A model generated the notes under the pieces. That model worked only from the letters and a program-made list of their open reading frames with translations, was not told where the DNA came from and made no database searches. A stretch of 64,000 nucleotides of DNA from assembly GCF_026155325.1 (NCBI RefSeq), contig NZ_JAPFPW010000003.1, forward strand, positions 1-64,000, given 5' to 3'. The position numbers and the translations under genes were made by a program. Below, piece by piece: positions 25,874 through 35,232 of the stretch. Positions within the stretch are counted from its first letter, which is position 1; each line of letters begins with the position of its first letter. The stretch comes from Desulfobotulus pelophilus. GTDB taxonomy: Bacteria; Desulfobacterota; Desulfobacteria; Desulfobacterales; ASO4-4.

Positions 25874-27180
25874 TGCTGAAGGCAAAAAGCAGGATAGGAC
25901 TGGTCTTTTTTCCGGCCTTTGACTGGGCCATCGATCCCAGCCATCCGGAGCGGGAAGAGCGTCTTCTTTATACCCAGGATCAGATTTTTGAAGAAGGCCT
26001 CATGGACATTGAGGGTATTCAGGAATTCAAGCCGGATCTGGTGACGGATCAGGATATACAGAGAGCCCATTTCTGCGTGCCCGATGAGTCAACGGTCACC
26101 ACCAGCAGTCACTATGTATCCGCAGGCGGGGCCAAAACCATGGCAAGGGAGCTGATGGAAGGCCATATAGAAAAGGGTTTTGCCCTCGTTCGTCCGCCGG
26201 GTCATCATGCCATGCGGGTGGTGCACGGGGGTAGGGGATTCTGCAACATCAACATCGAAGCCATCATGGTGGAATATCTGCGCAGCCAGTGGGGTGTTAA
26301 GCGCATTGCCATTGTGGATACGGACTGTCACCACGGAGACGGCACTCAGGATATTTACTGGCATGATCCGGATGTGCTCTTCATTTCCCTGCATCAGGAT
26401 GGCCGTACCCTGTATCCGGGTTCGGGGTTCATGGAGGAGCTGGGTGGACCCAATGCCGCAGGCTATACGGTGAATATTCCCCTGCCGCCCCACACCTCGG
26501 AGGAGGGCTATCTTTACACAGTTGAAAATGCGGTGATGCCCATACTCGATGATTTCAAGCCGGACCTCATCATTAACTCAGCAGGTCAGGATAATCATTA
26601 TACAGACCCCATCACCAACATGAATTTCACAGCCCAGGGCTATGCAAAACTGACGGAGATTTTAAATCCCCACATTGCCGTGCTGGAAGGGGGGTATTCC
26701 ATTGAGGCGGCCCTTCCCTATGTGAATGCTGGCATTATCCTTGCCATGGCGGGCCTTGATTACAGCCATGTGCTGGAGCCGGATTATAATCCCGCTGTTC
26801 TGAAGGAATCGAAGGATACCCTGCAGTATATCCATAAGCTCTGTGACCGGGTGATGGATCAGTGGAGCCGCAGAGGTCCGGAACTTTCGCAGAAGGTATT
26901 CGGGAAAAAGGAATTCCATGAAAGATCCCGCTCCATTATGTATGATACGGACGGCATCTATGAGGGGCAAAAGGAAATTCTCCGGTCCTGCTCGGACTGC
27001 GCCGGGTCTTTTCGCATTGAAAGCAAGTCGGACCGGGACTGGCGCATCATAGGCGTGCATATACCTTTGAATGCCTGCCCTGCCTGCAAGGCTCAGGGAG
27101 AAGAATGGTACGAAAATGCGTCCGGTGCGGACAAGGCCTATCTGCAGGATCGCAGTCGGGATCTTTACCTGAAAAAATAG
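25870..27180 (+). CDS. Histone deacetylase/AcuC-family protein with C-terminal zinc-ribbon-like tail
   Basis: 436 residues. Residues about 1-330 form a class II-type deacetylase domain with RPPGHHAM (the catalytic histidine pair), VDTDCHHGDGTQDIY (zinc ligands Asp and His), a glycine-rich HPHIAVLEGGYS-like end, and NSAGQDNHYTDP carrying the second zinc Asp. The family hydrolyses acyl-amide bonds (acetyl-lysine, acetylpolyamines or other amides). Unlike most bacterial members (about 310-375 residues), it continues for about 85 residues with two CxxC pairs (CSDC and CPAC), a likely zinc ribbon. ATGA overlap with the HyuA-like gene indicates one operon and probably a shared substrate. It is followed directly by a structured repeat element. 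Confidence 0.88.
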   Translation: MMLKAKSRIGLVFFPAFDWAIDPSHPEREERLLYTQDQIFEEGLMDIEGIQEFKPDLVTDQDIQRAHFCVPDESTVTTSSHYVSAGGAKTMARELMEGHIEKGFALVRPPGHHAMRVVHGGRGFCNINIEAIMVEYLRSQWGVKRIAIVDTDCHHGDGTQDIYWHDPDVLFISLHQDGRTLYPGSGFMEELGGPNAAGYTVNIPLPPHTSEEGYLYTVENAVMPILDDFKPDLIINSAGQDNHYTDPITNMNFTAQGYAKLTEILNPHIAVLEGGYSIEAALPYVNAGIILAMAGLDYSHVLEPDYNPAVLKESKDTLQYIHKLCDRVMDQWSRRGPELSQKVFGKKEFHERSRSIMYDTDGIYEGQKEILRSCSDCAGSFRIESKSDRDWRIIGVHIPLNACPACKAQGEEWYENASGADKAYLQDRSRDLYLKK

Positions 27181-27527
27181 TAATGGATCAGCACAGTTTA
27201 TTCTCAAATTCGAATACAGTAATTGCAGCAGCGTCGTGCTGTTGCAAGGCACCTTGGCTGTTTGCAAGTGACGTTGCAATCGTTTCGGATCAGAGATTCG
27301 AAGGCCTGTGCGAAAGAAGCGGCAAACTGTCTGAGCCGCCACAAAGGCAGCGTGCTTAAGTCTGCTATGGTAATCAAAAAGCTTGTCCTGCCTGTGGCGG
27401 GGAGTTTTTGCCGCTTCCGCACAGGGCAAGAAGCTCGAAGAATAAGCTTGCGTCACGGGCAAATAGCCTGGGTGCCTGTGCATCTGCCTGGCAGGTATGC
27501 TACTTGGAAAATTGTGCTGAACAGTTA
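27181..27527 (+). repeat. Structured repeat element, copy 1 (347 bp)
   Basis: Non-coding element that starts right after the deacetylase stop codon. It shares a gap-free left block (27181-27295, 115 bp) and right block (27450-27527, 78 bp) with the copy at 34368-34638. Its ends are imperfect inverted repeats (TAATGGATCAGCACAG and TTGTGCTGAACAGTTA) bounded by TA. The 154-bp core is unrelated to that of the other copy but folds on itself: segments near 27303-27350 (CCTGTGCG, AAGCGGCAAA, CCGCCAC, AGGCAG) pair with 27389-27426. This fits an IS630-like, TA-targeting MITE or a mobile structured RNA element. No transposase is present, and the orientation is arbitrary. Confidence 0.75.
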
Positions 27528-27558
27528 CAAAAAATCACTGTAAGGAGTGGCATTGGGC

Positions 27559-28485
27559 ATGGAAGCCAAGGCTTTTCGCAGAATGCGGATTCGGGCCCAT
27601 CTGGAAATGAGGATGCGGATGGCAGCGGCTGTCCGCAGCTTTTTTGCTGAAAGAGATTTTTTGGAGGTGGAAACTCCCATCAGAATTCCAGCCCCTGCAC
27701 CGGAGGTACACATAGACTGTGTGTCTGCCTCCGGAGCTTTTTTGCAGGCATCTCCGGAGCTTGCCATGAAGGAGTTGCTGGCCTCGGGTTTTGACAGAAT
27801 CTTTCAGCTGGCTCGCTGTTTCCGTGCAGGTGAGCGGGGGGTAAAACATCTTCCGGAAATGACTTTGCTGGAATGGTATGTGAAAGAGGAGGATTATCGC
27901 TATATGATGGAGGAGACGGAAAAACTGATCTGTTATATGGCAGAATGCGAAGGCATGGGCGGCATCCTTGTCTGGCAAGGGAAAAATGTAGATCTGACAC
28001 CACCCTTTGAAAGGCTTTCCGTTGAAGAAGCTTTTTTACGCCACGGTAGCCTGTCCATGGAAGCAGCCCTTGAGAAGGGCTGCTTCAACGATGTCATGGG
28101 GCTTGAGATTGAGCCGGAGCTGGGTCGTACAAAACCCGTGTTTCTCCATGACTATCCCGCATCCGAAGCCTCCCTTGCCCGTATGAAACCGGAAAATTCA
28201 GCCCTTGCAGAGCGATTTGAGCTTTACATCTGTGGTGTGGAGCTGTGCAATGCCTACACCGAGCTTGTGGATGCAAAGGAGCAGGCCGTTCGTTTCCGGG
28301 AGGCTGCGGCAGAAAGGGCAAGGCTTGGAAAGAGGGCTTATCCTGAGGCCGCCACTTTTCTGGAGGCCCTGGGCCATATGCCGCCTGCAACGGGGAATGC
28401 TTTGGGTTTTGATCGTCTGGTCATGCTTTTTTCGAACGCTCCGGATATTGATCATGCCACGGCCGTGTTGCCGGAGGAATTGTAA
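27559..28485 (+). CDS. epmA: EF-P lysine lysyltransferase EpmA (PoxA/GenX)
   Basis: Class II LysRS-like enzyme without the anticodon domain. 308 residues, close to the 325 of E. coli EpmA. Motif 1 FFAERDFLEVETP, motif 2 RCFRAGERGVKHLPEMTLLEW and motif 3 GFDRLVMLF are all present, with FELYICGVELCNAYTEL as in the substrate pocket. In enterobacteria it attaches beta-lysine to elongation factor P so that ribosomes pass proline runs; neither EF-P nor the aminomutase EpmB lies in this window. The ATG at 27559 has TAAGGAG eleven bases upstream, directly after the repeat element, so the element lies in or just before its leader. Confidence 0.93.
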   Translation: MEAKAFRRMRIRAHLEMRMRMAAAVRSFFAERDFLEVETPIRIPAPAPEVHIDCVSASGAFLQASPELAMKELLASGFDRIFQLARCFRAGERGVKHLPEMTLLEWYVKEEDYRYMMEETEKLICYMAECEGMGGILVWQGKNVDLTPPFERLSVEEAFLRHGSLSMEAALEKGCFNDVMGLEIEPELGRTKPVFLHDYPASEASLARMKPENSALAERFELYICGVELCNAYTELVDAKEQAVRFREAAAERARLGKRAYPEAATFLEALGHMPPATGNALGFDRLVMLFSNAPDIDHATAVLPEEL

Positions 28486-28581
28486 TTTCCGTTTCCTAAG
28501 GCTGGGGGAAACGTTTGGTTATCTGGAACCCATAGGTGTTGTCCGGGTTCAGATTAGGATACAGAAAAAGGAGTCTGCAGG

Positions 28582-29589
28582 ATGGATAATACTTGGAATC
28601 CCGGTCGTCTTCTTCGTCTTTCCGGTTCTTACTGGGAGGTCTGCACTCTGCATACGGGGGTGAAGCTGGAAGTTTTCACCCTTCTTTCTTCTGGCCCTCA
28701 AGGGGCGGAAGCTCTCTGTCATGCCCTGAAGGGGGATCTGCGGGGAGTGGTGGCTCTGCTGGATGCCCTTTCTGCCATGGGCCTTCTTGTAAAAAAGGAG
28801 GGGCTTTACGGGAATACCCGGGGCGCGGAAGATTTTCTTGTGAAAGATGCTCCCGGTTATGTGGGCTATATGATTCTGCACCACCATTTTCTCATGGATC
28901 CCTGGAATCGTATGTCAGAGGCCGTTCTTACGGGAAGATCCGTGGATAGCAGTCTCAGCGGTGCTACGGAAGAAGCGGAACGGGAAAGTTTTCTCATGGG
29001 TATGTTCAACATTGCTTCGGCCGTTGCGCCGGGTGTTGCCAAGGCCCTGGATCTTTCCGGATGTGACCGTCTTCTGGATTTTGGCGGAGGTCCCGGCACC
29101 TTTGCTATCCATCTGTGCATGGAACATCTTCACCTTCAGGCGGAGGTGTACGATCTGCCCACCACAAGGCCCTTTGCGGAAAAAACCATTGCCCGCTATG
29201 GCCTTGAAGGGCGCATTGGCTTCAGGGATTTTAATTTCCACGAGGACAGTCTGCCGGAGCCGGAAAGCTTTGATGCCGTATGGATTTCTCATATTCTTCA
29301 CGGGGAAGGTCCGGAGGATGCACAGAATGTGGTGGTAAAGGCACTGGAAGCCCTGAAGCCGGGGGGCAGAATTTTTATTCATGATTTTATTTTGACGGAT
29401 GATCGTACCTCTCCCCTTTTTGCAGCCCTTTTTAGCATCAATATGCTGGTGGCAACGGATCGTGGACAGTCCTATTCAGAAAAAGAAGTCAGGATGATGT
29501 TGCAAGCCGCCGGAGCAGGTTCCATCCGGCGGCTTGCTTATAAAGGCCCGACTGAATCGGGTATTCTTATGGGTATCAAGGCAGGATAA
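28582..29589 (+). CDS. SAM-dependent O-methyltransferase (plant-type/ASMT family)
   Basis: 335 residues. The N-terminal winged-helix dimerisation domain (YWEVCTLHTGVKLEVFTLLS, ALSAMGLLVKKEGLY) is followed by a Rossmann methyltransferase domain. SAM motif I is LLDFGGGPGTFA near residue 155; the acidic residue is in EVYDLP, and the post-motif is LKPGGRIFIHDFIL. The architecture matches acetylserotonin/caffeate-type O-methyltransferases, which methylate small hydroxylated aromatics or peptides. The methyl acceptor is unknown. GGAG precedes the ATG at 28582. A MarR-type regulator follows 51 bp downstream on the same strand. Confidence 0.88.
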   Translation: MDNTWNPGRLLRLSGSYWEVCTLHTGVKLEVFTLLSSGPQGAEALCHALKGDLRGVVALLDALSAMGLLVKKEGLYGNTRGAEDFLVKDAPGYVGYMILHHHFLMDPWNRMSEAVLTGRSVDSSLSGATEEAERESFLMGMFNIASAVAPGVAKALDLSGCDRLLDFGGGPGTFAIHLCMEHLHLQAEVYDLPTTRPFAEKTIARYGLEGRIGFRDFNFHEDSLPEPESFDAVWISHILHGEGPEDAQNVVVKALEALKPGGRIFIHDFILTDDRTSPLFAALFSINMLVATDRGQSYSEKEVRMMLQAAGAGSIRRLAYKGPTESGILMGIKAG

Positions 29590-29640
29590 GAGGGAACAGG
29601 AAGCTTTTTACAGGTCTTTGGGCCGGAAGATAGATCAGTA

Positions 29641-30102
29641 ATGGATGATAAGCGACTTTTTTATCTGATTCACAGGGTACATGGCAGGTTGATCCATGCG
29701 GTGGATCAGTACCTTTGGGAAAAGCTCCAGATTACCAGTGCCCAGCTGATGGCACTTTTTTATATCCGGGATCATGGCGGCTGCCTGCTCAAGGATCTGG
29801 GGGAGGGAATTCAGCTGAAAAGCTCTGGTATTACCGGTCTTGTGCGTCGTATGGAAAAAAATGGTCTGATTGTTAAAAGTCCTTGTGAACAGGATGGCCG
29901 TGGTTTTCGACTGTGCATTACACCTGAGGGGGAAGGCATTGCTGTCCGGGCCGTTCCCATGATCAGTCATCTGAATACCATTATTTATGAGGGCTTTTCC
30001 CATGAGGAGCTGGATACGGTTTTCCGTTTTATGAATCTTTTTCTGGAGAGAGTTTCAGAGCTTCCGGCAGGTTTCCATGCAGACGATGCACCGTTTTGTT
30101 AG
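29641..30102 (+). CDS. MarR-family transcriptional regulator
   Basis: 153 residues with the MarR winged helix: QITSAQLMALFYIRDHGGCL, then LKDLGEGIQLKSSGITGLVRR (recognition helix) and MEKNGLIVKSPCEQDGRGF (wing). MarR proteins are dimers that usually repress a neighbouring gene and are released by small phenolic or oxidising ligands. The gene follows the O-methyltransferase gene, its most likely target. The cysteine in the wing (SPCEQDGRG) stands where DPxDxR is usual; it is an oddity that could sense redox state, though this is speculation. Confidence 0.85.
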   Translation: MDDKRLFYLIHRVHGRLIHAVDQYLWEKLQITSAQLMALFYIRDHGGCLLKDLGEGIQLKSSGITGLVRRMEKNGLIVKSPCEQDGRGFRLCITPEGEGIAVRAVPMISHLNTIIYEGFSHEELDTVFRFMNLFLERVSELPAGFHADDAPFC

Positions 30103-30490
30103 TTGTGAAAAGAGTCGGGCTTTGTATGCAGGCGGTCAGAGGATTGCTATGGGAAAGCAGACCCATGGCTTGTTTTGTGGTGAATGGCTTTGCGCTGTGT
30201 AAGGGTTTGTTGCGGCCTTTTTTTCCGTATGAGGACGACAGTTTGCGTTGTTTATGTCTGGATGCTTCCTTCTGGTATTCAGGGCGGCAAGGAGAGGTGA
30301 GTGATGTTTTTGAGAAAGCTTCTGGTCCAGATCTGTAACGAAAGCGGGTGCAGGAAGGCAGGAAAAAACGGAACCTGCCATGCCGGAAAAAGGTCAGGGA
30401 GATAGTTCTTGACATGGATACGCGCGAGGAATAAAAAGCGGATATAGTTTGCATGCGTATTAAAATTGATTCTTCCTGAAGGGGGTTTTC
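30103..30490. other. Leader region of the molybdenum module
   Basis: About 390 bp without a supported gene. It contains a probable promoter at 30409-30437. Confidence 0.5.
30409..30437 (+). promoter_or_regulatory. Candidate sigma-70 promoter of the molybdopterin oxidoreductase gene
   Basis: A perfect TTGACA, a 17-base spacer, then TAAAAA. It lies about 54 bases before the start codon. The -10 box matches the consensus at the key first and second positions. Confidence 0.5.
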
Positions 30491-32746
30491 ATGGGAAACT
30501 GGCATACGACAGGATGCGTGCTCTGCGCCCAGAACTGCGGGTTGGAAATTCTGGTGGAGGAAGGCCGTATGGTGAAAGTAAGGCCGGATAAGGACAACCC
30601 CAGAAGCGAGGGCTATGCCTGTCGCAAGGGCCTGAATGTGATTTACCACCAGTATCCGGCAGATCGTCTCACCCATCCTTTGAAAAGAGTGGACGGTGCC
30701 TTTGTTCCCATCTCCTGGGATCAGGCCATGGAGGAAATTGCGGAAAAACTGAAAACCGGCCTTGCCGCCCACGGCCCCCGTTCCTTTGCCTATCTGGGAG
30801 CTTCCGCCCAGGGGGGGCACATGGAAGCCGGGTTTGGGGTAAGCCTCATGCGGGCTTTGGGTTCCCAGAACCTCTACACCTCCGCAGGCCAGGAGTTTAG
30901 CGGAGCCTGGTGGGTGCAGGGCCGCATGTTCGGAAAGCAGTATATCCTCACCGGCCCGGATGAGCATGAAACCCAGATGCTGGTGGCCTGGGGCTGGAAC
31001 GGGATGCAGAGCCATCAGATGCCCAAGACCCCTATGGTACTGAAGGAAATCAGTAAAAACCCGGAACGCCTTCTCGTGGCCGTCGACCCCCGAAAAAGCG
31101 AAACCGCTGAAATGGCGGATATCCACCTTGCCCTCCGGCCTGGAACGGATGCCCTCCTCATCAAGGCCATGATCGCCATTCTGGTGCAGGAAGGCTGGGA
31201 GAAAAAAGAATACCTTGAAGCCCATTGCGAGGGCTGGGAGCGCATCCGGTTCTGGTTTGAAAATTTTGACAGCCGGGCCGCCCTTGAAGTCTGCGGCCTT
31301 GCCCATGAAACCGTGCATGAACTCTGCCGCCTTATGGCTACCCGCCGATGGTCCTTTCATCCGGATCTTGGCATCTACATGGGCAGGCACAGTACCCTCA
31401 ACTCCTATCTTCTCAATGTTCTGGGCTCTGTTTGCGGTATTTTTGGACAAAGGGGCGGTAATATCATCCCCGGCATGGTTATGCCCTTAGGCTTTCATGC
31501 GGATGAGCGCAGCGAAAAGGTCTGGAAATCCGCCGTTACCGGAATGCCCCCCGCCGCAGCCGGATCTTTTCCCTGCAGCATCCTCCCCGAAGAAATCCTT
31601 AGCGATCACAAAGACCGCATCCGCTCCATCATCGTGAGCACCTGCAATCCCCTACGCTCCTGGCCGGATACCAAGGCTCTGGAAAGGGCCTTCTCCAGCC
31701 TCGATCTTATGGTGGTTTGTGATATGGTCATGAGCGAAACCGCCCGCCTGGCCCACTATGTGCTGCCCTGCCGCAGTTTCTATGAATCCTATGACGGAAC
31801 CTTCTTTCCATGGACGTATCCTGAAGTGTATTTCCAGCTGCGAAGGCCCCTTGTGAAACCCCATGGGGAAAGCCTTGAAGCCTCGCAGATTTTCACCCTG
31901 CTTGCGGACAGGCTGGGCCTGATCCCGGAAATTCCGGAAAAGGTGATGGAAGCCGCATCCAAAGACCGCATGACCTTTGGGGCCGAACTCATGGGCTGGA
32001 TTGCAAACCATCCGGAGCACCTTTCCAAAATGCTCTTCATTCTGGGAAAAACCCTGGGCAAAGCCTGGGACAGTGCAGCCCTTGCGGCCCTCTGGGGTAT
32101 GATGATGACAGCCCCGAAGTCTTTCAGGAAAAATGCGGCCCGTGCCGGATTTGAAACGGGCTTTGACATGGGCGACCGGATCTTTCAGGCCCTGTTGGAT
32201 CATCCTCAGGGACTCTGGGTTGGGAAGGTGGATAGGGAAAAAAACCTTGATGAAGTAAAAACCATTTCTGGAAAAATTAATCTCTTCATTGAGGAGCTGG
32301 CGGAAAAGGCGGCATCCCTCACTGCAGCAGAAGAGATCAAGGCCCTGACCCTGCCGGAGGATTTTCCGCTGGTTCTTAATGCCGGGCGGCACCGCTCCAC
32401 CAACATGAACACCCAAATGCGAAACCCGGAATGGATTAAAGGCAAACGCGGCTGCACCATCGCCATTCATCCCGAAGAGGCTGCAAAACTGGGGCTTCAG
32501 GATAAAGACACCGTCCGGGTGGTCACGGAAGGGGGCAGTGCCGTAGGCGAGCTTGAGGTGAAAGAGGACGTGCGGCCGGGCATGGTGCTGATTCCCCATG
32601 GTTTTGGTCTCATCTATGACGGTGTGAAATGGGGCTTTAATGTGAATGATCTTACCATGCACACCCACCGGGACCCCATCGGAACGCCCCTTCATCGTTT
32701 GGTACCTTGCAGGCTTGAGCTCTGTGGGGAAGGGAAGGGACTGTGA
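30491..32746 (+). CDS. Cytoplasmic molybdopterin oxidoreductase (DMSO reductase superfamily)
   Basis: 751 residues. The N-terminal [4Fe-4S] motif is Cys9-x2-Cys12-x3-Cys16 with Cys44 in the ACRKG context. The central molybdopterin domains contain WDQAMEEIA, VDPRKSETAEMADIHLALRPGTDALL and STCNPLRSWPD, and the C-terminal cofactor-binding domain begins near VLNAGRHRSTNMNTQMRNPEW. There is no twin-arginine signal, so the enzyme is cytosolic. The residue that coordinates molybdenum or tungsten cannot be read reliably; the region SAGQEFSGAWWVQGRMFG has no Cys or Sec at the usual place. It overlaps the FmdE-MoeA-like gene, which points to a dedicated cofactor supply. Its substrate is not known. Confidence 0.9.
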   Translation: MGNWHTTGCVLCAQNCGLEILVEEGRMVKVRPDKDNPRSEGYACRKGLNVIYHQYPADRLTHPLKRVDGAFVPISWDQAMEEIAEKLKTGLAAHGPRSFAYLGASAQGGHMEAGFGVSLMRALGSQNLYTSAGQEFSGAWWVQGRMFGKQYILTGPDEHETQMLVAWGWNGMQSHQMPKTPMVLKEISKNPERLLVAVDPRKSETAEMADIHLALRPGTDALLIKAMIAILVQEGWEKKEYLEAHCEGWERIRFWFENFDSRAALEVCGLAHETVHELCRLMATRRWSFHPDLGIYMGRHSTLNSYLLNVLGSVCGIFGQRGGNIIPGMVMPLGFHADERSEKVWKSAVTGMPPAAAGSFPCSILPEEILSDHKDRIRSIIVSTCNPLRSWPDTKALERAFSSLDLMVVCDMVMSETARLAHYVLPCRSFYESYDGTFFPWTYPEVYFQLRRPLVKPHGESLEASQIFTLLADRLGLIPEIPEKVMEAASKDRMTFGAELMGWIANHPEHLSKMLFILGKTLGKAWDSAALAALWGMMMTAPKSFRKNAARAGFETGFDMGDRIFQALLDHPQGLWVGKVDREKNLDEVKTISGKINLFIEELAEKAASLTAAEEIKALTLPEDFPLVLNAGRHRSTNMNTQMRNPEWIKGKRGCTIAIHPEEAAKLGLQDKDTVRVVTEGGSAVGELEVKEDVRPGMVLIPHGFGLIYDGVKWGFNVNDLTMHTHRDPIGTPLHRLVPCRLELCGEGKGL

Positions 32747-32748
32747 TC

Positions 32749-34350
32749 ATGGAGATTCGGGGATTATCCATCGAAGACTATCTGGAAAAAATCAGGGCCT
32801 TTCATGGACATCTGGCTCCGGGCATGGTCTGCGGGGGCTTCATGGTGGAGCTTGCCTTTCAGAGCCTTCCCGAAGGAGGGCTCTACGATGCCATTGCAGA
32901 AACCAGGGCCTGTCTGCCCGATGCCATTCAGGTGCTCACCCCCTGCACCATCGGAAACGGCTGGCTGCGCATCGAGAATACGGGCCGCTTTGCCATTCTC
33001 CTTTATGATAAGCACACGGGGCAGGGGGTGCGGGTGGCTCTGGACCCGGAGCGTCTCAAAAAGTGGCCGGAAGTGCATGTCTGGGCCATGAAACGGAAGC
33101 CCAAGAAGGAGCAGGATAAAAAACGGCTTTTCAGTGAAATCATCGAAGCGGGTTTCGGGCTTTACAAGGTGGAACGGATTTTTGTAGACCGGAAGCGTTT
33201 TTCCAAAAAAGGCCGGATTTTCACCTGCCCGGATTGCGGCGAAAGTTTCAGGGGATCGGAGCCGGGGTCTTGTGAGGCCTGCATGGGCAGGGTGGTCTTT
33301 TCTCCTTTGCGGAATGAGAATTCCGGGATAGGGGCCATTCTCGTGGAAGAGGCCGTGGGCCGAAAAGCCCTGCACGACATGACCCGCATTGAGCCGGGCA
33401 TTTTCAAGGGGGCGGCCATTGTGAAGGGTCAGAGTCTTGGGGATTCGGATGTTCTGCTCTTACAATCCATGGGCCGGGAAAGGGTCTATGTGGAAGAGAA
33501 CGGGGTGGGGGACATCTGCGATGCCCTTCTCCATGAAAACGAGGCCGCCCTTGCCTTTGCGGAAAAAATGGCAGGTTCCGGCATCGGCTACCTGCCCTTT
33601 CCCAAGGAAGGAAAGATTGATTTCACGGCAAAGCAGGGGGGGATTTTCCGTGTGAACCGGGAACGCCTCATGCGTTTTAACCGCTGCGAGGGGGTGATGT
33701 GCGCCACCCGCAGGAATGTAAGCCCCGTAAGTTCTGGCATGGTGGTGGGCGGCACACGGGCCATCCCTCTTTTCCTTGAAAAAAGGGCCTTTGACAGGGC
33801 CATGGAGGTTTTGGCCGAAGGCCCGCTCTTTTGCCTTGCGCCCTATGTTTTTTCACGGCTGGGAGTTCTTGTGACGGGAACGGAGGTGTTTGAAGGCCGG
33901 GTTAGGGACGGTTTTCTGCCCATTCTGGAAGACCTTGCGGCGGGGTATGGTCTGAAAGTCACGGAAAGCCGGATATGCCCGGACGATGCAAAAAAGATCG
34001 CAAAAGCCGCCTCGGAGATGGTGGAGGGAGGGGCTCAAGTGCTGGTGGTAACCGGAGGCCTTTCCGTAGATCCCGATGATGTGACCCGAAAAGCCCTTCA
34101 GGACGCGGGTCTTGTGGATGAGGTCTATGGGGCTCCTGTGCTGCCCGGAGCCATGACCCTCACCGGACGCATCGCTTCCACCCGTGTCCTCGGGGTTCCC
34201 GCGGGGGCTCTCTATTCTGCGCCCACGGCCATGGACTTTCTTCTGCCCTGGCTCCTTGCGGATATCCCCATCACGCGGGCCGACATGGCAAGCCTCGGGG
34301 AAGGCGGTTTTCTGGATGCTGGACGGCGGAGGCTTGAGGGAAAACAGTGA
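32749..34350 (+). CDS. FmdE domain fused to MoeA-like molybdopterin-binding domain
   Basis: 533 residues in two parts. Residues about 1-180 are an FmdE domain (formylmethanofuran dehydrogenase subunit E family), with the FHGHLAPGMVCGG signature and a zinc ribbon (CPDC ... CEAC near residues 158-178). From about residue 195 the sequence follows a MoeA/MoaB-like molybdopterin-binding protein (IGAILVEEAVGRKALHD, and VLVVTGGLSVDPDDVTRKAL near residue 435). FmdE proteins of non-methanogens are often beside molybdopterin enzymes and are thought to help deliver the cofactor; that role is inferred. The ATG at 32749 is preceded by AGGGA. A GTG at 32743, overlapping the previous stop codon, is the alternative. 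Confidence 0.85.
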   Translation: MEIRGLSIEDYLEKIRAFHGHLAPGMVCGGFMVELAFQSLPEGGLYDAIAETRACLPDAIQVLTPCTIGNGWLRIENTGRFAILLYDKHTGQGVRVALDPERLKKWPEVHVWAMKRKPKKEQDKKRLFSEIIEAGFGLYKVERIFVDRKRFSKKGRIFTCPDCGESFRGSEPGSCEACMGRVVFSPLRNENSGIGAILVEEAVGRKALHDMTRIEPGIFKGAAIVKGQSLGDSDVLLLQSMGRERVYVEENGVGDICDALLHENEAALAFAEKMAGSGIGYLPFPKEGKIDFTAKQGGIFRVNRERLMRFNRCEGVMCATRRNVSPVSSGMVVGGTRAIPLFLEKRAFDRAMEVLAEGPLFCLAPYVFSRLGVLVTGTEVFEGRVRDGFLPILEDLAAGYGLKVTESRICPDDAKKIAKAASEMVEGGAQVLVVTGGLSVDPDDVTRKALQDAGLVDEVYGAPVLPGAMTLTGRIASTRVLGVPAGALYSAPTAMDFLLPWLLADIPITRADMASLGEGGFLDAGRRRLEGKQ

Positions 34351-34367
34351 CTGGCAAAAAACCATGG

Positions 34368-34638
34368 TAATTGTTCAGCACAGTTTATTCTTAAATTCTA
34401 ATGCTGTCACTGTAGCCGCTTCGTACTTTAGCAAGGCACCATGGCTATTGGCAAGCGACATTGCAATCGTTTCGGATCAGAGCTTTGTCCGGCACTCAAG
34501 CCATAAACCCAAAGCCTTTGATGCAAATAATATAGCTTTTTCAGGCTTGGGTGCCGGATTGCGTCACGGGGAAATAGCCTGGGTGCCTGTGCATCTGTCT
34601 GGCAGATATGGTACTTGGAAATCTGTGCTGAACAGGTA
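34368..34638 (+). repeat. Structured repeat element, copy 2 (271 bp)
   Basis: Second copy of the element at 27181-27527. The left block (34368-34482) and right block (34561-34638) align without gaps to copy 1. The ends are near-perfect inverted repeats (TAATTGTTCAGCACAG and CTGTGCTGAACAGGTA), starting and ending with TA. The 78-bp core has a different sequence but again forms a stem: TCCGGCACtCAAGCC (about 34488-34502) pairs with GGCTTGGGTGCCGGA (34544-34558). The element ends only seven bases before the mobA ATG, so it forms the whole leader of that gene. Confidence 0.8.
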
Positions 34639-34644
34639 CAAATC

Positions 34645-35232
34645 ATGATAAACAACTGCACGGGGGTTATTCTTGCGGGCGGGCGCAGCACCCGCTACGG
34701 AGGGCGGAACAAGGCACTGTCACCCTTTGGAGATGGCCGCCTCATGGATGCCGTTCTTAGACCCATGAAGGAAGTTTTCGGCAAAAAAATCCTCATCGTG
34801 AGCCGGGAAACCGCCACCTATAGGGATTTTGGCTTTCCTGTGGTTGCCGATGTCCTTCCCGTTCCCGGAGCTGCCACGGGCATCCATGCAGGGCTTTTTC
34901 ATGCGAAAACGGATATCGTTTTTGTGGTGGCCTGTGACATGCCCTTTATACGGCCGGAGCTGATCCGCCTCGTACTTTCCCGTATGCATTCTCCTCTCCT
35001 GGCCCTTTTCCCCTGCCATGGGAAGAACCATCTGGAACCCCTGTGTGCCGTCTATCACAGGGACGGCATTCCTGTCCTTGCAAGCCACATCCTTGAAGGC
35101 AAAAGCAAGGTGCAGTGGATTTTTACAGGGGAGCAGAAGGGCCTTGTTCCGGAAATTTTACTCAGGGAGGCGGATGAAGATCTGAAGTCTTTTATCAACA
35201 TCAACTCGCCTGAGGATGGCATGGATAGATAG
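34645..35232 (+). CDS. mobA: Molybdenum cofactor guanylyltransferase
   Basis: Transfers GMP from GTP to molybdopterin to make the guanine dinucleotide cofactor used by DMSO-reductase-type enzymes. 195 residues, as in E. coli MobA. The nucleotide-binding loop GVILAGGRSTRYGGRNKAL is at the N-terminus, followed by DVLPVPGAATGIHAG and the metal-binding VVACDMPFIRPEL. The start ATG at 34645 gives the family N-terminus but has only a weak ribosome site, because the structured repeat ends just before it. It completes the molybdenum module begun at 30491. Confidence 0.93.
   Translation: MINNCTGVILAGGRSTRYGGRNKALSPFGDGRLMDAVLRPMKEVFGKKILIVSRETATYRDFGFPVVADVLPVPGAATGIHAGLFHAKTDIVFVVACDMPFIRPELIRLVLSRMHSPLLALFPCHGKNHLEPLCAVYHRDGIPVLASHILEGKSKVQWIFTGEQKGLVPEILLREADEDLKSFININSPEDGMDR

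Follow-up and report, generated by a model that had tools for sequence, protein, structure and literature searches.

Paired repeats of Desulfobotulus pelophilus as likely miniature inverted-repeat transposable elements of a genus-specific family with remodelled cores

Introduction

How can two repeats keep the same flanks and a similar folded shape when the sequences enclosed by these flanks have nothing recognisable in common? The question is raised by two noncoding elements in the first 64,000 nucleotides of contig NZ_JAPFPW010000003.1 of Desulfobotulus pelophilus (assembly GCF_026155325.1), the stretch referred to below as the window. The original prediction, made from these letters alone, took them either for a non-autonomous IS630-like miniature inverted-repeat transposable element (MITE) with a replaceable core, or for a mobile structured RNA or leader. 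We consider it likely that the two are genus-specific MITEs, which moved as units with an 8-bp target duplication and were then remodelled in place, by flips of the interior and losses of modules. The comparison bears on three genomes, namely that of the window itself (G000, 3.66 Mb), that of Desulfobotulus alkaliphilus (G001) and a further Desulfobotulus genome (G002), in which about 2.6 Mb of about 11.5 Mb, partly chosen for holding copies, were read directly.

Two elements with a common shell and unlike cores

The conserved flanks first noticed in the window were recovered as ungapped alignments, with 83% identity across 115 bp for the left blocks of elements 1 and 2 and 91% across 79 bp for the right blocks. 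Core A of element 1 and core B of element 2 could not be aligned with each other, yet both fold, as had been claimed, into stems that are more stable than expected from dinucleotide shuffles (element 1, z -8.2 and 0 of 100 shuffles equally stable; element 2, z -3.8 and 0 of 200). The inner portions of the left and right arms of the shell are mutually complementary, and the mobile unit, G-TAAYTGTTCAGCACA...TGTGCTGAACARTTA-C (G-TAA...TTA-C ends), is a quasi-palindrome. Inverted-repeat ends were likewise found, both for element 2 and genome-wide. Each unit is one base longer at either end than first drawn, and thus covers 27180-27528 or 34367-34639. Element 1 does start at a stop codon, its first base being the last base of the upstream TAG; element 2, for which the same had been said, starts 16 bases beyond the upstream stop. 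The parts are as follows.

27172..27179, no strand: left 8-bp target duplicate of element 1 (AAAAAATA), from flank comparison; the empty site in G002 has one AAAAAATC
27180..27528, + strand: element 1, form L-A-R (left arm, core A, right arm), from alignment and flank test
27180..27200, + strand: left terminal inverted repeat of element 1, diverged at TGGATC
27243..27273, + strand: inner left arm of element 1, complementary to 27451-27482, from alignment and fold
27286..27447, + strand: core A, hairpin module with approximate limits, from alignment, fold and pairing
27451..27482, + strand: inner right arm of element 1, from alignment and fold
27509..27528, - strand: right terminal inverted repeat of element 1, from the genome-wide repeat search
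27529..27536, no strand: right 8-bp target duplicate of element 1 (AAAAAATC), from flank comparison
34359..34366, no strand: left 8-bp target duplicate of element 2 (AAACCATG), from flank comparison; empty site in G002
34367..34639, + strand: element 2, form L-B1-R, interpreted as an L-B1-A-B2-R copy after collapse, from alignment and flank test
34367..34386, + strand: left terminal inverted repeat of element 2, from the terminal repeat search
34488..34558, + strand: core B1, hairpin with TCCGGCACTCAAG-type arms and approximate limits, from alignment and fold
34620..34639, - strand: right terminal inverted repeat of element 2, from the terminal repeat search
34640..34647, no strand: right 8-bp target duplicate of element 2 (AAATCATG), holding the presumed mobA start codon, from flank comparison

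Transposition with an 8-bp target duplication

Transposition was clearly recorded in the flanks. Identity between left and right flanks peaked at 8 bp (0.69, against 0.31 in shuffled pairs; z 21) in 90 of the 128 first-called copies, the 38 without a good terminal repeat at one end being omitted; the only further high values, at 6 bp (shifted one base inward) and at 10 bp (shifted one base outward), belong to the same register. The duplicates, many of which are A/T-rich, matched at all eight bases in 27 of the 90 copies and at seven of eight in 19 (together 46). Matches at this level were distributed over the forms of the element, with 31 of 53 copies whose core has the length of A, 5 of 12 without a core, 3 of 9 with A+B, 3 of 8 with B and 3 of 4 with B+A+B, as well as 1 of 2 with a core of about 54 bp and 0 of 2 others. 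Because they occur in each main form, copies of each main form have moved as units, so that "replaceable" describes the core in one sense only: cores do differ at orthologous sites, but each main core form was mobile as it stands, and the core of element 2 can be put down to a deletion between repeated modules.

Empty orthologous sites were found at both window loci and at eight more, 12 flank comparisons at these 10 sites giving flanks that abut with an overlap of 3-7 bases (comparisons with an unmatched stretch of more than 10 bases at either flank were excluded). The target of element 1, AAAAAATC, stands twice around the G001 copy and once in the empty G002 site, and the empty congener site of element 2, again in G002, has a single copy of its target, AAACCATG.

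A family so far found only in Desulfobotulus

The flanks are multi-copy: BLAST searches of the window's own genome returned at least 54 match pieces with element 1 and at least 57 with element 2. Matches were obtained in 3 of 58 genomes of relatives, namely this genome and the two congeners. The exact inner pattern was found in a contig collection, which may omit the window's own genome, in Desulfobotulus alkaliphilus only (16 stretches), and it gave no match in viral contigs. The terminal repeat GTAAYTGTTCAGCACANTTT, with at most one mismatch, was counted 13 times in G000, 101 times in G002 and 218 times in G001; the 386 other genomes of the class that were searched gave a single match, as did the reversed-pattern control overall. 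The lone match outside the genus (G384), which lies among genes of two-component-system type (open reading frames judged by eye), equals this control and was set aside as being at chance level.

A total of 153 copies (30 in G000, 56 in G001 and 67 in G002) were called in the sequence read, corresponding to 152 distinct ones, since one G001 copy was counted twice (L100 and L105); the G001 count of 56, as well as the 68 L-A-R rows and the 114 arm-bearing rows used below, very likely include this copy twice. Most full copies are noncoding, measure about 180-480 bp and carry terminal inverted repeats of the GTAAYTGTTCAGCACANTTT type. On long contigs, 69 of 77 full-length copies are intergenic, the other eight overlapping an open reading frame by more than 60 bp. 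Together with the target duplication and the empty orthologous sites, such features are those of a MITE, and the non-autonomous MITE proposed at the outset is therefore retained, as a genus-specific family so far known only from Desulfobotulus. Our search of the open-licence literature found no paper on transposable elements of Desulfobotulus, and the genome or repeat papers on the genus concern other matters, judging by title.

Intact terminal repeats are far fewer in the window's own genome than in its congeners (13 against 101 and 218), a difference that would fit an older or less active family in D. pelophilus. In the D. alkaliphilus assembly, a run of N lies inside one copy (L105, about 284-547), perhaps due to hairpins that are hard to sequence or assemble.

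Modular cores and a proposed collapse of element 2

Comparison of the copies revealed a shell, made of the left and right arms, which encloses hairpin modules at fixed positions: none, B, A, A then B2, or B1-A-B2. Among the 114 rows with both arms, 68 fall in class A, 15 have no core, 10 have A+B, 10 have B and 5 have B+A+B, with 4 of about 54 bp and 2 others; these classes were set by core length, not by sequence, and the module junctions were read by eye from alignments. The modules hardly occur on their own, 163 of 175 BLAST pieces of A or B (from four overlapping queries) lying inside called copies, 10 adjoining an L or R arm and 2 lying elsewhere. Fixed end modules around variable middle modules are the build known from BOX elements, discussed below.

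An extra end module (CCACGCCGTGTTACGGCG...GTTAC) was also observed beyond the usual terminus in some copies, for example at G001:C3:125355-125401 and from G002:C1:275574 onward. In the G001 copy at G1C3:125008, this module measures 47 bp, and the eight bases just after it repeat the left flank perfectly (ATCAGATA), so that the extended form was the mobile unit at this site.

Element 2 illustrates how a large core may collapse. Its ortholog in G001 sits at the same base and in the same orientation (81% identity unflipped, 67% flipped). Aligned with an L-B1-A-B2-R copy, the G000 element reads L-B1 then R, with the junction in a repeat at the B end, and the G001 ortholog reads L then B2-R, with the junction in a 13-bp repeat at the B start. 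From these alignments we infer that both orthologs derive from a single large ancestral form, each through an independent deletion between repeated ends of modules. A third copy, at G1C2:46906, shows the same collapse; its L-B1 part (151 bp) is 98.7% identical to that of an intact large copy lying at a distance of 0.7 kb. The idea that B2 is an inverted B1 was abandoned: side by side, the two match in the same orientation, which the deletion model fits.

Flipped interiors at shared sites

Ten sites are occupied at the identical base in two species, E1 and E2 (elements 1 and 2 of the window) and P3 to P10. The interior is better matched flipped than unflipped at six of them, namely E1, P3, P5, P7, P8 and P9 (0.79-0.91 against 0.49-0.61), and not at E2, P4, P6 and P10. 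Of the latter, P10 shows a simple internal deletion with 95% identity, and the core difference at P6 was not counted, a run of N being present in the G001 copy. Left out of the ten were three pairs inserted at a different base (G2C3:199118/G0C27:9525, G2C1:9225/G0C20 and G2L182:5161/G1L181:813), a pair with unclear ends (G2C7:90722/G0C12:49178) and a short same-site remnant that is not inverted (G2C7:71371/G0C12:77891), with which the proportion would be 6 of 11.

Judging from these alignments, inversion in place is strongly supported at P8, where the outer 30 nt stay in place and the core, with a string (ATCGCCAA) present in 3 of 152 copies, is flipped, the two copies being mutual nearest relatives (rank 1 each way). 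It seems well supported at P3, where an idiosyncratic GTCA terminus is in place and the interior turned, and at P5, where the extra end module is in place and the interior turned; the P5 copies are short, and the string common to both occurs in one other distinct copy. The states of E1, P7 and P9 are compatible with inversion; since other copies are nearer than the partner at these sites, they would also fit a re-insertion into an A-rich target, or a conversion from some other copy.

Possible mechanism and competing explanations

From a mechanistic point of view, a trans-acting transposase, perhaps IS66-like and now lost or located outside the sequence read, would cut and join the GTAA ends. 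Once inserted, the long palindrome may rearrange in place, its interior inverting between the inverted repeats and its modules being lost by deletion between repeated module ends, the ends of B1 and B2 being alike and in the same orientation. Such rearrangement would probably proceed by template switching or slippage on the hairpin, and re-amplification could spread the products. The outcome would be orthologous copies with equal shells and unlike cores, and, in the window, an L-A-R copy and a collapsed L-B1-R copy.

Several observations weigh against this account. The rank of the ortholog among the copies of the other genome, based on a summed bit score that favours longer partners (and with one copy counted twice among the 56), is first in both directions at P4 and P8 only; it is 27/56 and 2/30 at E1, 28/56 and 44/67 at P9, 10/56 and 4/67 at P7, 24/67 and 12/30 at P5, 6/56 and 1/67 at P3, 36/56 and 1/67 at P6, and 9/67 and 1/56 at P10, and the orthologs of element 2 are nearest relatives one way only (1/30; 5/56). 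In several pairs B is present in one copy and absent from the other, with an identical junction, which suggests exchange between copies; at several sites another copy could have acted as donor in a conversion, or the element could have been re-inserted into an A-rich target. Furthermore, 22 of the 90 copies match at three or fewer of the eight flank bases, no autonomous element or transposase with the family ends was found in the stretches read, and the sole IS66-type transposase of the three genomes is associated with another inverted repeat (GTAACTTCTCAATAAG) and mismatched flanks (GGAACCTC, AAAAAGAC).

Among the alternatives, gene conversion or unequal exchange between dispersed copies, via the conserved arms, has in our judgement a genuine though minor chance of accounting for the core differences at orthologous sites. 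It would explain why, in eight of the ten pairs, some other copy ranks above the ortholog in one direction or in both, and why A forms without B have the same junction at several sites, but it accommodates less easily P8, where near-private core bases are common to both copies and yet flipped, or the simple deletions that suffice for both forms of element 2 and for P10. Independent insertions into preferred A-rich targets, the apparent inversion being a re-insertion in the opposite orientation, seem rather unlikely to us: many duplicates are A/T-rich and the E1 and P9 sites are A-rich, with orthologs that are not nearest relatives, whereas P3, P5 and P8 keep idiosyncratic termini or an outer module in place around a flipped interior. 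We regard as quite improbable a dedicated transposase or recombinase that would act on the terminal inverted repeats and flip the interior, bringing sister species near an equilibrium of orientations; if true, hundreds of intergenic switches could alter the expression of neighbouring genes.

Absence of a directional RNA signature

The proposal of a conserved structured RNA, whether leader, small RNA or processing signal, appears very improbable to us, despite strong folds and well-kept pairing. Indeed, 98.6% of cells in the 68 L-A-R rows remain paired, whereas slid controls reach 34-46%; cells with a change on either side of the pair number 50, against 0-20 in the slid controls, both sides being changed in each. 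These two-sided changes trace mostly to one subfamily of 12-13 rows, and correspond to 9 pairs against 0-11 in the slid controls, one control thus giving 11; of the covariation that had been called for, the maintained pairing was therefore found, and the excess of covarying pairs was not. Kept pairing is equally expected of a DNA palindrome in which one arm is corrected from the other.

Position relative to genes argues in the same direction. With gene calls made as greedy open reading frames, not by a trained gene finder, full-length copies on long contigs and in tandem gene contexts were oriented like the genes in 25 cases and against them in 21, which is no strand preference, while 15 copies lay between convergent and 8 between divergent genes, and 8 overlapped an open reading frame. 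At gathering thresholds, Rfam recognised three tRNAs in the window and neither of the elements. A directional RNA leader is thus not supported.

Transposase partner and insertion sequence relatives

No transposase sharing the family termini was found in the stretches read. Only 4 of 172 terminal-repeat matches in these stretches had no recognised L or R arm nearby, and no transposase was seen among the open reading frames around the two best-matching armless repeats (by eye) or around the one on contig 4 of G000. No match to TnpB_IS66 was obtained in any of the three genomes, nor any to IS1595 transposases. A single match to Y1 transposases occurs in the window's own genome.

Elements of the IS66 family are described, in the portions of the source that treat their ends, as starting with GTAA and generating 8-bp direct repeats (PMC11946415). 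The Desulfobotulus family resembles them in both respects; the ends printed in the corresponding passages, GTAAGCG and GTAACCG, differ from it in the remainder of the terminal inverted repeat, and the family copies are without transposase (PMC11946415, PMC12888890). Kinship with IS66 may thus be suggested from ends and target. No terminal inverted repeat is common to the family and an element with an IS66 transposase, and we have not filed it as IS66-derived, because the only IS66-type element of the genus has the ends GTAACTTCTCAATAAGTGTAGGCAT and TnpB_IS66 gave no match. The gene of this IS66-type transposase (G001:C66, locus L251, 212-2117) is bordered by a perfect 25-bp inverted repeat, GTAACTTCTCAATAAGTGTAGGCAT, with 8-bp flanks that do not match. 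Searches of the open-licence literature joining IS66 with MITE terms found nothing.

MITEs of the IS630/Tc1 type are short inverted-repeat elements with a TA target. We give practically no credence to such an origin for the present family, which shares with them the short inverted-repeat build and a TA at both ends. An IS630-type transposase is present in G002, but the family differs by an 8-bp duplication (z 21, the other high values being in the same register) that already refutes insertion at TA, and by ends unlike those of the G002 sequence, of CTAATAAG type (by eye), which moreover sits within a copy. Because of this duplication and of the empty sites, the TA noted at the outset, which is present, belongs to the terminus of the element and is not a duplicated target. 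The insertion sequence in question (G002:C1:136501-137614, loci L167) carries an open frame of 347 residues and lies in the right arm of the copy; a terminal-repeat pair of 1448 bp in G002, considered as a possible autonomous carrier, proved to be this copy with its insertion.

Comparison with other modular or inverting MITEs

The Correia elements of Neisseria have ends that we take to differ from those of the Desulfobotulus family. As far as the review PMC10969869 describes these Correia repeat enclosed elements, they are similar to it in their small size, intergenic place and inverted ends, and inversion of such a MITE has been reported. The Desulfobotulus family differs by its 8-bp duplication and its nested core modules, and its inversion is deduced from species comparison only. 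A second precedent, in the sections of PMC3049150 bearing on architecture, is that of the BOX repeats of Streptococcus pneumoniae, modular and MITE-like, whose length changes at given sites between strains. They may be likened to the present family by their end modules, variable middle modules, predicted hairpin, terminal inverted repeats and target duplication. As described in that account, however, BOX varies by the number of boxB modules in a tandem array, whereas the Desulfobotulus family has nested hairpins (B1, A, B2) at set positions and, unlike BOX, an interior that is also inverted at orthologous sites.

Modular MITEs and MITE inversion thus have precedents, and what sets this family apart is the combination of nested cores, collapse and flipping. 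The three congeners offer a natural series, in which one site can be compared base by base when empty, filled, flipped or collapsed, and hairpin-driven inversion and deletion of a mobile element may be followed in this series of copies. The family also illustrates that no selection on RNA structure is needed for cores of the same shape and of unrelated appearance to arise, so that reading function into a conserved shape may mislead.

Neighbouring genes in the window

Pfam assigns to the neighbours of the two elements a histone deacetylase domain, a class II tRNA synthetase core, an FmdE plus a molybdopterin-binding domain, and a MobA-like transferase. The gene next to element 1 was first named epmA; the class II tRNA synthetase core is what Pfam gives, and EpmA is the name chosen by the earlier reader. 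A promoter search in the elements gave 0 and 2 weak matches, and two terminator-like sites were noted in element 1, none of which was used for any reading. The start codon of mobA does adjoin element 2, as had been remarked, and the presumed ATG (34645-34647) more precisely sits inside the right-hand target duplicate, the left duplicate holding another ATG. Insertion of element 2, at a site that is filled in G001 and empty in G002, thus duplicated the ATG and placed a new 5' leader before mobA.

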